Source: a virus
IMG/VR virus record: IMGVR_UViG_3300005253_000162
Location: 1-50,501 of that record
Length of the DNA: 50,501 bases
Reading direction: 5' to 3' (one strand)
A program made the translations under genes and the position numbers. Under the pieces are notes generated by a model, which was not told where the DNA came from, searched no databases, and worked only from the letters and a program-made list of their open reading frames with translations. This document shows, in pieces, positions 3,741-32,209 of the stretch; positions within the stretch are counted from its first letter, which is position 1; the number at the start of each line of letters is the position of its first letter.

Positions 3741-4046
3741 ATGTTAGAGATAGGACAAACGGCCAAAGTCAATAAGCACATAGATTTTGGACCAATCAAA
3801 TACACCGACGAAACAGGAGTTGTCGTACAAGTTGGACTCCAAGAATATGACAATCCTATGGTCTACAGGGTCGAGTTCGAAGATCTGCCTACAGCCTGGT
3901 TCTTTGAGTCAGAGGTCACGCTAATGAGACAAACCAAACACGTCACATACGCTTGTGGCTGTGTCGTTGATCTTGGCGGTTTTTATGAGTCATTTGCCCC
4001 GATGTTCTGCGGAGAACATGAAACCCGGATTACCAAGATAGCTTGA
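3741..4046 (+). CDS. Small SH3-like domain protein with a CGCVV tail motif
   Basis: A 101-residue protein with a strong AAAGGAGG site. Residues 1-62 match the phage's own repeated domain: MxEIGxxxKV at the start, a central GVVVQVG strand, then WFxxxEVTL at the end. The fold looks like a KOW/SH3-type small barrel (inference). Residues 68-95 carry YACGCVV and FCGEH, a putative zinc site that recurs in the protein at 14097. First gene after promoter P1. Confidence 0.75.
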   Translation: MLEIGQTAKVNKHIDFGPIKYTDETGVVVQVGLQEYDNPMVYRVEFEDLPTAWFFESEVTLMRQTKHVTYACGCVVDLGGFYESFAPMFCGEHETRITKIA

Positions 4047-12154: not shown

Positions 12155-13627
12155 ATGATGGCTAGAGCGCAAATAACGGTAGCACCAAGACTATTGAAAC
12201 TAGTTGGACGAGCCCAATATACAGGTCATCCATTAACAATCTGTGTACGCGAGCTGCTGCAAAACAGTCGCGACGCATGTGTCCGCAAGGGTGTTGAACC
12301 TGAGATTTACATAGCCATACATCGAGTCGACGATAAGACACTTATTATTTGTCGAGATAACGGCATTGGCATGACTGCTGATCAGATTGAAAACGACTTC
12401 TTACAACTCGGTGGCGTAGGTAAAACCGAGAACAGCGAAGTTGGTGGCTTCGGCATTGCCAAGGCTGCGATCATGAGTGGCGAATTCTGGCAAATTAGAA
12501 GTCTTAACAACACCTGTAATATACACGATGTAGAAGCAGGTAATGTAATTCGCAAAACCCCGTTTCTCGATGGCACAGAAGTTCGTATAATGATCACCGA
12601 AAGTATATATTACGGTAGCATACACGACACTACATCAATCATATACGCCAGCGATGTCAAACTACATTTCAAATATACATGGGAGGGCAAAATAATATTT
12701 GATGAACCTACCGCCGGTTTTCCTAAAGCATTGGAGTCGTTTGATGTACATACGGGAGATACATTTGATATTCGTACAACGATGCAACCTATAGACTTAC
12801 CAGACATTAAAGGTTTAGAAAAGCATAAAGTTATTTCAGGCGTTAATATCATTCGTGTCGGCGGTCTGGCGCAGTTCATACAAGGTCATAACAATAGCCG
12901 TGAAACAACACTGATTATTGATCTAAAGCCTAAGGTACGTCCGGATCACGAATTATATCCGTTAACCATGAATCGCGAATCATTTAGCGGTATAATCGGT
13001 AAAGCTGTAGATGCGATTATCCAAGCGCATAATACGAATGTAATGGAAAGTGTTATGATTGCCAGTGGTAAAAGCGAAGAAAAGAACGTTTTGAAAATAG
13101 TTCGTGGAAAATTTGTTAGTGGCAAACGCAAAGGTCAAACTGTTGGATACGCAACAAATACAGAAGATAGTTTCATGGGCAATAGCGGTTACGAAACAAG
13201 CGATAATGACAATGAGGAACAAGAATTATACGGCAACGGCATTGCCATGATCGTTGAAGAATACAGTGCTGATAGAAATACACGTAATCAGCACGCTAAA
13301 ATTCTCGCGCTTTGGCAGGAAATATTAGAATTAACTGTCGGCAACGATGAGAAATTCGGTATCGGCATTACAGGAAAACGTTGGTACGATGCGCTGCGTT
13401 GGATACATAATGGCGATATTTATTATGTGATAAATCCAGATATGCTGAAGAATACGAATGGCAAAGGTGGACTGGTTCTTCGACTATGGACGTTGGCCGC
13501 ACACGAAGCAACACACGCTTTGAATTCAGCACATAACGAGAATTTTTCTTCGCTTATGGATTGCGTATGCAGTGAAAGCGCAGACGCAATTTATGAAAGT
13601 ATGACAAGGCTAAAGAGGCTAGTATAA
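12155..13627 (+). CDS. GHKL (HSP90-type) ATPase with C-terminal HExxH zincin motif
   Basis: A 490-residue protein with an AAAAAGGAGG site. The ATPase shows the N-box ELLQNSRDA (E33, N37), the DNGIGM G1 box (68-73) and the GGFGIAKA lid (97-104). The C-terminal region has HEATHALNSAH at 450-460, the HExxHxxxxxH spacing of metzincin-type metalloproteases, with Asn replacing the usual Gly. T4 rIIA is also a GHKL protein, so an rIIA-like anti-exclusion role is possible. The protease assignment rests on this motif alone. Confidence 0.8.
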   Translation: MMARAQITVAPRLLKLVGRAQYTGHPLTICVRELLQNSRDACVRKGVEPEIYIAIHRVDDKTLIICRDNGIGMTADQIENDFLQLGGVGKTENSEVGGFGIAKAAIMSGEFWQIRSLNNTCNIHDVEAGNVIRKTPFLDGTEVRIMITESIYYGSIHDTTSIIYASDVKLHFKYTWEGKIIFDEPTAGFPKALESFDVHTGDTFDIRTTMQPIDLPDIKGLEKHKVISGVNIIRVGGLAQFIQGHNNSRETTLIIDLKPKVRPDHELYPLTMNRESFSGIIGKAVDAIIQAHNTNVMESVMIASGKSEEKNVLKIVRGKFVSGKRKGQTVGYATNTEDSFMGNSGYETSDNDNEEQELYGNGIAMIVEEYSADRNTRNQHAKILALWQEILELTVGNDEKFGIGITGKRWYDALRWIHNGDIYYVINPDMLKNTNGKGGLVLRLWTLAAHEATHALNSAHNENFSSLMDCVCSESADAIYESMTRLKRLV

Positions 13628-21690: not shown

Positions 21691-21965
21691 TGGACACACC
21701 ACGAAGCCTAATCTTTAAATATTACAACAGAGCAAAAGAACAAACAAAACCGGGAGGAAAATTAGAAAAAGGTCGTGTCAATCGTGCCTTGGGTCTCTGC
21801 TTGTCTAAAGAGCGGTACGACTTAATGCTCAAGAAATACCAAACGACCGTTATTGACTGTACTTGCCCGGATAGAACACATAGGGTCTATTGGTGCAAGC
21901 ACCGAGTGGCTGTTGGCATTATGTATCGCGTAAAACAAGACATTCAAAAGCAGTGGTTGCAATGA
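21690..21965 (+). CDS. SWIM zinc-finger protein
   Basis: A 91-residue protein. The C-terminal half carries CTCPDRTHRVYWCKH at 57-71, the CxCx9CxH signature of SWIM domains, which bind DNA or protein partners. The N-terminal half is basic and helical (SLIFKYYNRAKEQTK). It overlaps both neighbours, placing it in one transcript with the HNH gene. Confidence 0.8.
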   Translation: MDTPRSLIFKYYNRAKEQTKPGGKLEKGRVNRALGLCLSKERYDLMLKKYQTTVIDCTCPDRTHRVYWCKHRVAVGIMYRVKQDIQKQWLQ

Positions 21966-22447
21966 GAGAAATAATACTTACTCAGGGAAAAGTCTCATTA
22001 GTAGATGATAAAGACTACAAGTGGCTAAATGAATACAAATGGTATGCGCATAAAGATGGATATACTTATTATGCTGTTAGGAATAGATCTATTTGGACAG
22101 ATGGAGTTGGACCTGGATTAATATCTATACATAGAGTAATCTTAAAAGCTAAAAAAGGAGAAATATGCGATCATATAGATAGAAACGGATTAAATAACCG
22201 ACGAAGTAATTTACAGATTGTTTCGGCTAGAAAAAACAGTTTAAATAGTCGCCTTTCGAAGAGCAATACTTCTGGGTTTAAAGGTGTGTATTATGTTGGT
22301 TTAGATATTAATTTAAACGAGCGATGGACAGCACAAATAATAATAAATGGAATTCATAAATATATAGATGTTTTTGCAACGCCGGAAGAAGCACATGAAG
22401 CTCGTCAAATTTATTTAGAACAATATGAAGAAAGTATTGCACAATGA
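21962..22447 (+). CDS. HNH-AP2 homing endonuclease-like protein
   Basis: A 161-residue protein starting at MREIILTQGK. It shows the usual layout: an N-terminal strand region (DYKWLNEYKWYA), an HNH core with CDHIDRNGLNNRRSNLQ, then an AP2-like end (GFKGVYY, RWTAQIIINGIHKYI, TPEEAHEAR). Such endonucleases are mobile in phages. It overlaps the SWIM and lipoprotein genes, so it is inserted without any intron evident here. Confidence 0.85.
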   Translation: MREIILTQGKVSLVDDKDYKWLNEYKWYAHKDGYTYYAVRNRSIWTDGVGPGLISIHRVILKAKKGEICDHIDRNGLNNRRSNLQIVSARKNSLNSRLSKSNTSGFKGVYYVGLDINLNERWTAQIIINGIHKYIDVFATPEEAHEARQIYLEQYEESIAQ

Positions 22448-22940: not shown

Positions 22941-23234
22941 CTAGGGATCAACAATTTGTATTTCCTGCATTAACATCCAAGATAAATTTTTAGATACAAC
23001 GTCGTCAAGATATTTATCATTAACATACCTTTCTATTCTAGGATATTGAACCTGGAATCGTTCTACATATTCACAATGCGAACATTTATGTAGATATAAA
23101 TACTGTTCAACATCTTCTCCCTGCAACATTGTACGGAAAGATAAAAGTGAATCATAATTCATCCATCCCTTTTCGCATTCATCACAACGAAAACGAATTA
23201 GTTTTTCTTCAATTACATTGCTTTGTATCGACAT
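22941..23234 (-). CDS. Small zinc-ribbon protein
   Basis: A 97-residue protein with CDEC near residue 17 and CSHC near residue 51, suggesting a zinc ribbon; the ribosome site is AAGGAAGG. Last gene of the leftward replication module. Function unknown. Confidence 0.65.
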   Translation of the reverse strand: MSIQSNVIEEKLIRFRCDECEKGWMNYDSLLSFRTMLQGEDVEQYLYLHKCSHCEYVERFQVQYPRIERYVNDKYLDDVVSKNLSWMLMQEIQIVDP

Positions 23235-23237
23235 ATT

Positions 23238-23813
23238 TTACCTTCCTTCGTCTGCGTAAGCATTTCTTTCCATAAAATGGAACGGTTCACAAACTCCAGT
23301 GCTGTAATAAGCAGCGATTTCAAGAGCTTTCTCAACTTTTTCCCGACCATTAAATGCAGGGTCAAATTGCATAGCCTTCAAAGCAGCTAATGCATAACTT
23401 TCGCCACAGCCAACGACATCAAAGCCATCTGTATAAATACCCACTTGCATATCATTATTTATATGATAGATATTGTGTCTGAATACAACCAAGAACTCAC
23501 CCATATATTCATTTTCATTCTCTTTATACATGTATCCATATTCTTTAAGGCAAGATCTAACTTCCGGTATAAATTGAGTTACCATATATCGATGATTTGC
23601 TCTATAATCATTAAGTCCAGGTTTTGTTTCAACTGTTAAATGATATCGTAGAATTTGCCCCATCCTTATGGAACCTGTAGTTCCAATAACAAATCTACCA
23701 AGCGAGAACACTTTGGCGAATCCCATTTTTCGTATAGCTTGACCGCTAATAGATGCACTATCCCAACCAAGATAAACTATACCTTCTTCTTTATATGCTA
23801 TTACACAGGTCAC
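23238..23813 (-). CDS. Proteasome/HslV-type Ntn hydrolase
   Basis: A 191-residue protein from a GTG with AAGGAG 5 bases ahead, overlapping the previous stop (GTGA). The sequence begins Met-Thr, so Met removal exposes a Thr nucleophile. Counting from it, Asp17 (GWDS) and Lys33 (FAKV) fall on the canonical proteasome positions. FVIGTTGS and VVGCGESYALAALKA match conserved HslV and beta-subunit strands. Length fits HslV (about 175). No HslU-like unfoldase is in the window. It may process virion proteins or degrade host proteins. Confidence 0.85.
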   Translation of the reverse strand: MTCVIAYKEEGIVYLGWDSASISGQAIRKMGFAKVFSLGRFVIGTTGSIRMGQILRYHLTVETKPGLNDYRANHRYMVTQFIPEVRSCLKEYGYMYKENENEYMGEFLVVFRHNIYHINNDMQVGIYTDGFDVVGCGESYALAALKAMQFDPAFNGREKVEKALEIAAYYSTGVCEPFHFMERNAYADEGR

Positions 23814-24181
23814 GTCGACTCCTTTTCCAACTCTCTTTGCTTTGCTAAAATTTGTCCGAGCATTGCTCGCGAGCCAGTACTCGATTTCCAAGTTTTGAAC
23901 CACTGAAACAATTCGGGATTATTCAGATCAACGGCCTCGGTTAATGCAATAAATTCTTTGTGACTTGCAAAACCTCGTTCACGTGCTCTTTCGTCGAGAG
24001 AAATTGGTGCAATCTCTTTACGAATTTCTTGTACGAGTGCATCAGTGGACACGGGTGGATTTCCAATAGGATTATTGAACCACGAAGCCCAGGCTATAGC
24101 TTGACGCTCAAGTATAGATTGCTTCATAGCTGACTTTTCTTCTAATTTACTAACAAATTCAAGAATTTCAAATCCACTCAT
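23810..24181 (-). CDS. Helical hypothetical protein
   Basis: A 123-residue protein starting at MSGFEILEFV after AAGGAG. It is helical, with Trp-rich patches (WASWFNNP, LFQWFKTWK). Translationally coupled to the proteasome-like gene, so it could be its adaptor or regulator, though this is inferred from position alone. No family recognised. Confidence 0.65.
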   Translation of the reverse strand: MSGFEILEFVSKLEEKSAMKQSILERQAIAWASWFNNPIGNPPVSTDALVQEIRKEIAPISLDERARERGFASHKEFIALTEAVDLNNPELFQWFKTWKSSTGSRAMLGQILAKQRELEKEST

Positions 24182-24256
24182 CGTATTTTTCTCCTTGGGT
24201 AATTTTTTGTACCGCCAGGTAAACCATACATCAACACAGCCAAACAGCACCGCTAT

Positions 24257-29689: not shown

Positions 29690-32209
29690 TTATTGCAACA
29701 TGACATTGAAACGTATTTTTAGAACCTCTTTGCGTTTATGCGGATCAAACTCATCTTTAAATTCAGCTTGAAAATCGTCGCACAACCTTTCTTTTAGCGT
29801 AGAAAAGTGTCGATAAAGTCCTTGCGAACTTTTCCATTTAAATGTTTGGCGACGTGCTTGCGACATAGTTTGTAAGATATCAAATAATTGTGGGAATGTT
29901 TTCCATTCAGAAGCTTCTTGTGGTTTCAAAGTTAACCACTCTTCCAATAAAAATATCGCTTGCGAGCTTTCTTTTAATTGTTTCATTTGGCTATCAACCA
30001 TTGACAACAATCCGCCGGATAAATTTTTCGCGTGAATAATTTTAGATTTTTTTATTTTTTCACAGAAGACAGTAAAGTCAACCAATCTACTTTTAGTGGG
30101 CGGTAGAACCATTGGATCGTCTTTCAAAATTTCAACAACACTGCTTAATTTGATTAATAAATCTGCCCATATTGCTGGACCGTACTCCCTGATTTTACGC
30201 TGCAAAACATATTCAGGTAATGGTGTAGTCAGTTTAGTCATCTCAAGTACAAGCAATCGTGTAAATAATGTTTCATCACTAAACGGCATATTTACGGCTG
30301 TGATAGCAACAAAACATTGTGGAACAATCGTATATTTTCTATTCGTATGGTACAATTTACGAAGCTCAATATGACTTCCGGTTGAGAGTTTGTTCAATAA
30401 ATCAACTAGCCACCAAACGCCTGATTTTTCTAGATTGTCCAGTGCCAATAATCTATGCGAAGAAATACTCGCTCGCAACGCATCTTGTTTATCTGTAGGT
30501 ATTGATAATACGTCTGAATCAGGTTCTTCCAAAATTCGCAATATACGACGTATAGCCGTAGTTTTCCCTGAACCTTGTATTCCAAGCATTGCAAGTATCG
30601 GTTTCGTCGGCAACATCTCTTGAAAAAAATATGCTAATAACCACGCTTTCAATAATTCTTTTTGCTCATCCGGTGTAGCTGGAGCTTCTGAGGATGTTGT
30701 AAAAGACAAATCGTTAACCAAATGATCCCAAGTATCAACTCGCTGAGTGTCAAAATCAGGTATGACATATTCACCAGAAATATTTGTTATGAACATATAA
30801 CCGCATTCACCATTGTATGACTTATCAATTTTACCTTCACCACTAATTATGTATACCTCAGGGCCACCTAGATTAACATATAATTTTTTTGCCGACTCAG
30901 ACCAAAAAGTTCGATGCAAAATTGGAATAATCGGTGCATCACGAATTATCCGTAGCCGTAATTCAGTAGCAGTTAATTTGCTGAAATTTTCTATAGGATT
31001 TAAGCCAAAAATCTTGTTCAATAATGAATCCCATTGTTCGCTACCTTCATCAATAACTGTATGCGTTTCCGAATCGTACCAGTATGCCAAATTTTCTTTA
31101 TTTTGAAATATCTTACAGCCACTGTCATGTAGAATAGTCCATATAACTGATGCGGCAAGTCTAGCTGACTCCAGCTTTGGTCGTCCTCTGGAATATCGTA
31201 TGTCATCAATTTGCGCAACAGTATCTGGAGCACGTATAAGCGATACAAGCTCAGATAACTTCTGCATCGCTGAAACGGGTAATATTTCTCCCAGACCTTG
31301 TCGTCCACGAACACTTTTTCCTTCTTTATGTCGACTGAACGTTGTTTGAACTGTTTGTAATCGGTTGCGTAGTTCGTCATCGTCACTACGTGTAACTATT
31401 TTACGAATTAATTCCTTCGTTTGGTCAACACCCCATCCTTCATGTGCTAAGTAACCACTGAGAAATAAACTAAGATCATGCCTAACTCCATCACGCCAAT
31501 AGGCTGAAATAAGCTCTACTAATTGTGTCTCTAAATCTGGACCTGACTCTATTATTGCTAAGACATCTTCAGCAGAAGCTTTGTAAGATAAAATATCACA
31601 AGGTTCTAATATAGGTCCAGTTTCCCAACCGTTCAGCATATCCACGAATATACTTTGCGCATGTGACCGTGGATGAACACCTAAAGGAATTTTTAGTAGA
31701 TTACCTTTTGGTCTACTACGAGTTAATCTATCTTGTTTGGGAAAACATTCAACATGTGTTGACCCACGTTTCTGTAAACCCTCACTTTCACGTACCCAGT
31801 CAACAATCTTTTTTGCATCTACTGCTGGTAAAGGTTCTTTTAAGAAAACTAGCACATGATAACCTTTGCCGCCAGAATATTCCACGGCATACGGTACATG
31901 CTCTAGATATTTTGTAATTTGCTCGACTAACTTTCTTGCTTTTAGAATATCTGAGCTATCTACATCCCAACCAAACCATTTAACAGCATCAATACCCTGC
32001 ATTAATTGATAACTGCCTAGAATGACCTTGCCCTTTGTATGTTCTTTAATATTTTCGTATTCTAATGCAAGCTCCACAGGCTTGTAATACATATCTGCAT
32101 CGGAAACAATACACTTTGCATAGTAAGGATTTCCGCCAAATATTTCTAATAATAATTTTTCAACATTTTTAGAGCGTATCTTATCTTGAACTGCAAGTTG
32201 AGCCGTCAT
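29690..32209 (-). CDS. AEP primase-helicase fusion
   Basis: An 839-residue protein with an AGGAAGG site. The N-terminal part is an archaeo-eukaryotic primase of the TOTE-like type: WDVD (D82, D84), SGGKGYH at 112-118, VECFPKQD and GNLLKIPLGVH. The C-terminal half is a P-loop helicase with GIQGSGKTT at 543-551 and LLALDN at 587-592. It primes and unwinds DNA at the phage fork. It lies next to the family A polymerase. Confidence 0.88.
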   Translation of the reverse strand: MTAQLAVQDKIRSKNVEKLLLEIFGGNPYYAKCIVSDADMYYKPVELALEYENIKEHTKGKVILGSYQLMQGIDAVKWFGWDVDSSDILKARKLVEQITKYLEHVPYAVEYSGGKGYHVLVFLKEPLPAVDAKKIVDWVRESEGLQKRGSTHVECFPKQDRLTRSRPKGNLLKIPLGVHPRSHAQSIFVDMLNGWETGPILEPCDILSYKASAEDVLAIIESGPDLETQLVELISAYWRDGVRHDLSLFLSGYLAHEGWGVDQTKELIRKIVTRSDDDELRNRLQTVQTTFSRHKEGKSVRGRQGLGEILPVSAMQKLSELVSLIRAPDTVAQIDDIRYSRGRPKLESARLAASVIWTILHDSGCKIFQNKENLAYWYDSETHTVIDEGSEQWDSLLNKIFGLNPIENFSKLTATELRLRIIRDAPIIPILHRTFWSESAKKLYVNLGGPEVYIISGEGKIDKSYNGECGYMFITNISGEYVIPDFDTQRVDTWDHLVNDLSFTTSSEAPATPDEQKELLKAWLLAYFFQEMLPTKPILAMLGIQGSGKTTAIRRILRILEEPDSDVLSIPTDKQDALRASISSHRLLALDNLEKSGVWWLVDLLNKLSTGSHIELRKLYHTNRKYTIVPQCFVAITAVNMPFSDETLFTRLLVLEMTKLTTPLPEYVLQRKIREYGPAIWADLLIKLSSVVEILKDDPMVLPPTKSRLVDFTVFCEKIKKSKIIHAKNLSGGLLSMVDSQMKQLKESSQAIFLLEEWLTLKPQEASEWKTFPQLFDILQTMSQARRQTFKWKSSQGLYRHFSTLKERLCDDFQAEFKDEFDPHKRKEVLKIRFNVMLQ

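Follow-up and report, generated by a model that had tools for sequence, protein, structure and literature searches.

Proteasome homologs encoded by phages, PPH and AAH, were reported by Fuchs, Alva and Lupas in 2021 (PMC8665760), with an active site of Thr1, Asp17 and Lys33 plus Gly47; according to that paper, the phage homologs have neither an AAA+ partner that its authors could find nor an informative genomic context, PPH comprise about 140 residues and lack helix H2, and BPH (beta-proteobacterial proteasome homolog) carries a long acidic pore loop. In two further reports, a Salmonella jumbo phage has two HslV genes with HslU absent (PMC7823757), and the gene list of an Alteromonas phage includes a proteasome-like CDS (PMC7289586); the word 'phage' does not occur in the searched passages of a 2026 proteasome review (PMC13022661). 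For HslV, activation by C-terminal peptides of HslU, inserted between the HslV subunits, is described in PMC6429459. A literature search with most subscription papers and all preprints outside its scope found no functional study of phage proteasome homologs.

The window analysed here is the whole 50,501-nucleotide stretch of the IMG/VR record IMGVR_UViG_3300005253_000162, a linear fragment of which one end falls in a tape-measure-like gene. A minus-strand frame from a GTG at 23,813 to a stop at 23,238 encodes a protein that begins MTCVIAY (Table 1; residues are numbered after removal of Met), and upstream of this GTG the frame stays open. The initial annotation had set the start by the ribosome site and deduced from it a Thr N-terminus, which is borne out by the relatives: their alignment begins at the Thr that a GTG start would place next to the initiator Met, and this Thr comes immediately after a start codon in 90 of the 93 dereplicated relatives (in 166 when all 169 loci are counted). 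In-frame stops at most 10 codons upstream in 49 of these 90 leave no room for a long propeptide. In the viral relatives L023 and L029 (matches at 4001), unlike in those 90, MKTT precedes Thr1 and cleavage would be needed; L046 has a gap at Thr1 in the alignment. By their codon-usage scores, the peptidase and the upstream gene both fall in the coding range of this genome, a level reached by 0 of 665 non-coding-frame segments. The overlap of the two genes suggests that their translation is coupled.

Table 1. Features at and around the peptidase gene, with positions in the window
Feature	Position	Strand	Details
Proteasome-like (AAH-type, PHROG 1040) threonine peptidase gene	23238..23813	-	191 aa, GTG start; Thr1, Asp17, Lys33, Gly43
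AAGGAG ribosome-binding site of peptidase gene	23819..23824	-	5 nt before GTG, inside end of upstream gene
GTGA overlap	23810..23813	-	Peptidase start codon over TGA stop of upstream gene
Upstream, putatively coupled gene	23810..24181	-	ATG at 24181, 123 aa, orphan
AAGGAG ribosome-binding site of upstream gene	24191..24196	-	
Downstream zinc-ribbon gene	22941..23234	-	97 aa; Pfam Zn_ribbon_3CxxC 29 bits vs cut-off 23; 3 nt after peptidase stop, same run

The AlphaFold2 model of the peptidase, built from 60 sequences (mean pLDDT 94.8, pTM 0.90), has the strand and helix order of a proteasome-type Ntn subunit, with helices at residues 49-58, 70-91 (H2), 138-148 and 156-170; the alpha-beta-beta-alpha Ntn fold is seen in the model and in the comparisons with Foldseek and VIA-align alike. 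Foldseek retrieved 984 PDB chains at E <= 0.001, and the 50 listed are all of the proteasome family, with BPH as the top match (E 2.9e-12). BPH also ranks first in VIA-align (Z 21.9; 2.0 Å over 172 residues, 19% identity), followed by HslV (Z about 19.8) and then by 20S beta subunits. The protein has the N-terminal nucleophile (Thr or Ser in proteasome-fold Ntn hydrolases), Asp17, Lys33 and the oxyanion-type Gly43; among the dereplicated relatives, Asp17, Lys33 and Gly43 are each invariant (93 of 93), and Thr1 occurs in all 92 that are not gapped at its column. Thus Thr1, Asp17 and Lys33 stand as first claimed, family, fold, conservation and codon usage place the gene beyond chance, and the two outcomes named in advance as refuting a proteasome-type protease, a predicted structure lacking the Ntn fold and loss of Thr1 in homologues, did not occur. 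The initial annotation had also seen HslV-like strands, of which the GSG-type one is here corrected to GCG (82 of the 93 relatives likewise have Cys at this position); we take this motif to correspond to the Ser129 position of the proteasome. Beside Asp17 stands Trp16, where 88 of 93 relatives have Gly or Ala, and with this residue and a long branch in the tree of relatives (1.64) the activity of the window peptidase could differ.

These counts rest on relatives found via a pattern at residues about 45-54 (IMG/VR), via TSSFRMGQ (bacterial genomes) or by whole-protein searches; conservation of residues about 45-54 is therefore partly by construction, and the columns of Thr1, Asp17, Lys33 and Gly43 all lie outside that stretch. 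Alignment-based scans confirmed 496 stretches in IMG/VR and 100 loci in bacterial genomes, of which 80 each were kept. Dropped before counting were L001 and L014/L015 (same phage), L003 (truncated at a contig edge), L171 (a 779-aa open frame) and L114, L118, L119 and L120, Rhizobium copies in which a stop after 38 codons interrupts the gene.

Proteasome-fold peptidases had been called unusual in phages, and a search for homologues in other phages had been proposed. This search by tblastn gave 178 phage records at E <= 0.1, of which 40 align over 80% or more of the query at a single site, with Salmonella, Escherichia, Vibrio, Aeromonas, Geobacillus, Moorella, Microbacterium and others as hosts named in the phage listings; together with the IMG/VR count, PHROG 1040 and the 2021 report (PMC8665760), it shows that among phages the gene is not unusual. 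The 80 listed of the 100 bacterial loci belong chiefly to Azospirillum, rhizobia, Frankia and other Actinobacteria, and Paenibacillus and other Bacillota. Closely similar copies occur in Azospirillaceae (L102, L107-L109, L113, L115, L121 and others; a group of 31 loci, mostly Azospirillum, is linked at >75% identity), for which no head or packaging neighbour was recognised within five genes; both features suggest a cellular role there. Long C-terminal extensions are seen in a Vibrio phage (L008, 4001-4984; 327 aa) and in Actinoplanes couchii (L171, 6001 onward; the 779-aa frame), and in Vibrio phage henriette 12B8 (L013, 2633-3130) a gene for peptide deformylase, whose action comes ahead of Met removal, lies three genes before the relative.

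With respect to family, the peptidase matches the PHROG 1040 profile ('peptidase HslV family') over residues 1-180 (E 3.3e-19), and Pfam Proteasome at E 0.097, below the family cut-off; the profile match, the fold, the structural neighbours and the conserved catalytic residues support the proteasome-type threonine peptidase that was first proposed. True HslV was rejected as a candidate: TIGR03692 scores 20.0 bits against a curated cut-off of 157.75, and six HslV proteins form a clade of their own (support 0.997) with the window peptidase outside. PPH as described is excluded by the 191 residues and the presence of helix H2. Both helix pairs, the lack of a large insertion and of a propeptide, and the taxa of the relatives (mainly alpha-proteobacteria, Actinobacteria and phages, judging from IMG/VR and from the 80 genome loci retained out of 100) fit the AAH type by its published description, and AAH probably overlaps PHROG 1040. 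In the tree of relatives, the window peptidase sits on its long branch beside L016 and L019, and in a second tree, extended by six out of eight HslV sequences and all four proteasome-beta sequences, it sits near the base; such different placements are expected for a long branch. We place it in an already known family, as a new and divergent member, and regard it as most likely a self-compartmentalised threonine peptidase.

The peptidase gene is preceded on the same strand by genes for thymidylate synthase, a Sak4-like protein, exonuclease, helicase, Pol A, primase and DNA ligase. Within the replication primase (29690-32209, minus strand), Pfam recognises an AEP domain of the TOTE-conflict type (AEP-TOTE, E 6.4e-20), and the C-terminal half gives weak P-loop matches; elsewhere in the window, a plus-strand gene at 12155-13627 has a weak match resembling the rIIA lysis inhibitor, and another at 21890-22447, near the meeting point of the gene runs of the two strands, reads by eye like an HNH/AP2 homing endonuclease. 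By plain count, five of nine named phage regions have a gene for thymidylate synthase or ribonucleotide reductase no more than about 5 kb from the relative. Of the 73 dereplicated viral relatives (IMG/VR plus named phages), 22 have a TerL, portal, prohead protease, ClpP or capsid gene at most two genes away. Association with a head module looked promising in clustering and in Pfam tallies and is not claimed here, as it was not significant against a rough length-based null (11 of 29 vs 6.8 expected on 25-70 kb contigs, P 0.057; 2 of 22 vs 1.96 expected on longer contigs), itself crude, with an assumed 10-kb target per contig; genes were called by a simple greedy choice of ORFs, which performs poorly in GC-rich DNA. 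The contexts are mixed and do not support one shared role for the relatives; in line with the 2021 paper, genomic context gives no firm function.

The absence of a visible unfoldase gene, noted initially, holds for the 50.5-kb fragment, in which hslU, AAA_2 and AAA profiles had no match. The contig is incomplete, and among the window proteins scanned (a subset of the open frames) no terminase, portal or capsid match counts, with one protein giving weak 'head protein' matches and another a chance-level terminase match; for a fragment with no packaging or head genes matched, lack of an AAA+ unfoldase is no proof of absence. HslU and HslV were also searched for in 18 bacterial genomes carrying a relative, for which completeness values are not given. 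In all 10 actinobacterial genomes, neither HslU nor HslV exceeded the cut-off and only sub-cut-off matches occurred, whereas all eight proteobacterial and firmicute genomes had both over the cut-off. A mode of action through HslU only can therefore not be general, and obligatory use of HslU by the family appears unlikely from these profile searches.

The explanation that we favour, and regard as probable, is a propeptide-less, self-compartmentalised threonine peptidase that works without a dedicated phage unfoldase. It would be translated from the GTG, coupled to the preceding gene, and host deformylase and methionine aminopeptidase would strip the Met and expose Thr1; since Met removal alone frees Thr1, propeptide cleavage would not be needed. 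Thr1 would serve as the nucleophile, with Lys33 and Asp17 activating it and Gly43 occupying the oxyanion position, and the subunits most likely assemble as a closed BPH-like double ring with the active sites inside; BPH is a tetradecamer. Such a ring may degrade peptides and unfolded proteins alone, or may borrow a housekeeping chaperone or ATPase. As the gene stands at the end of a replication/recombination run, the peptidase is probably made with the DNA-replication genes, and it could clear host or phage proteins during their expression. A more specific proposal, that the virus encodes a mini-proteasome independent of ATP (a ring peptidase expressed together with the replication genes and active in infected cells with no dedicated unfoldase), is possible but tentative; ATP independence does not follow from the genome survey, because the HslU-less Actinobacteria have other AAA+ proteins (sub-cut-off matches).

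It is unlikely, if conceivable for the window phage, that phage rings replace host HslV and redirect degradation via the host unfoldase HslU (ClpY). The hijack of a host HslU, as first suggested, would be consistent with the rank of HslV among the nearest solved relatives (VIA-align Z about 19.8), with the HslU genes of the eight non-actinobacterial genomes and with the reported activation of HslV by HslU peptides (PMC6429459); as a general mode of the family, however, it disagrees with the 10 actinobacterial genomes without HslU over the cut-off, and the identity to the six HslV proteins is only 17-20%. Rather unlikely, too, is an enzyme of narrow specificity for maturation or transfer that processes a single phage protein, e.g. 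a head or packaging protein, despite the head-related neighbours of 22 of the 73 viral relatives and the portal genes that lie no more than two genes away from the window's sister rows, L016 and L019. The null comparison described above (P 0.057; 2 of 22 vs 1.96) speaks against this enzyme, as do the additional prohead protease in several of the cassettes and the position of the window copy in a replication run. Connectase, a ligase, is the analogy for a transfer enzyme.

The initial annotation had further considered the overlapping upstream gene as an adaptor, and a unit in which the 123-aa protein recruits substrates or caps the ring could be read from the GTGA overlap, the gene's own ribosome site and its coding score. 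This proposal is very improbable, however, and the adaptor role found no backing: homology searches gave relatives of the upstream protein in the same phage only, tblastn gave no match in 11 loci drawn from other phages and from viral contigs, Pfam gave no match at E <= 1, and a PHROG of unknown function was matched weakly (E 0.0074). Its single-sequence model is all-helical and of low confidence (pLDDT 55.8), too weak for a fold search. A non-proteolytic protein or inactive remnant, as might be suspected from the long branch and Trp16, is the least probable of these explanations, since all catalytic residues are kept in an open frame with coding signal.

Phage proteasome homologs are thus common and catalytically conserved in sequence, with no tested role found in print. 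The favoured peptidase without dedicated unfoldase agrees with the relatives in genomes without HslU over the cut-off, which argue against obligate HslU use; the ATP-independent mini-proteasome, if true, would represent a ring peptidase family that also persists in bacteria lacking both HslU and HslV. The role is testable in an ordinary laboratory system, because a relative with Thr1, Asp17 and Lys33, annotated as hypothetical only, is encoded by Escherichia phage SuperGirl (Bas29; bas29_0065, L189 5001-5579), whose listed host is E. coli K-12.

Compared with the known systems, the window peptidase shares with PPH the nature of a phage-borne proteasome homolog, and differs by its length (191 vs about 140 residues) and helix H2. 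With HslV/ClpQ it has in common the fold, Thr1, Asp17, Lys33 and a Thr near the start, but identity is low (17-20%), the profile score is 20 vs 157.75 bits, no hslU adjoins the gene or is matched in the 50.5-kb record, GCG replaces GSG, and its family has an FRMGQ-type motif. BPH (5ovs, 5ovt) is the nearest solved fold (Z 21.9, 19% identity), though BPH is bacterial and the comparison concerns the fold alone. The closest likeness in type is to AAH, the phage and bacterial group I homologs, with a compact group I subunit, two helix pairs, no AAA+ partner, and a spread over phages, alpha-proteobacteria and Actinobacteria; from these the window copy differs by its divergence (25.9-45.7% identity to relatives) and Trp16, and it adds a divergent member to a family already described in print.
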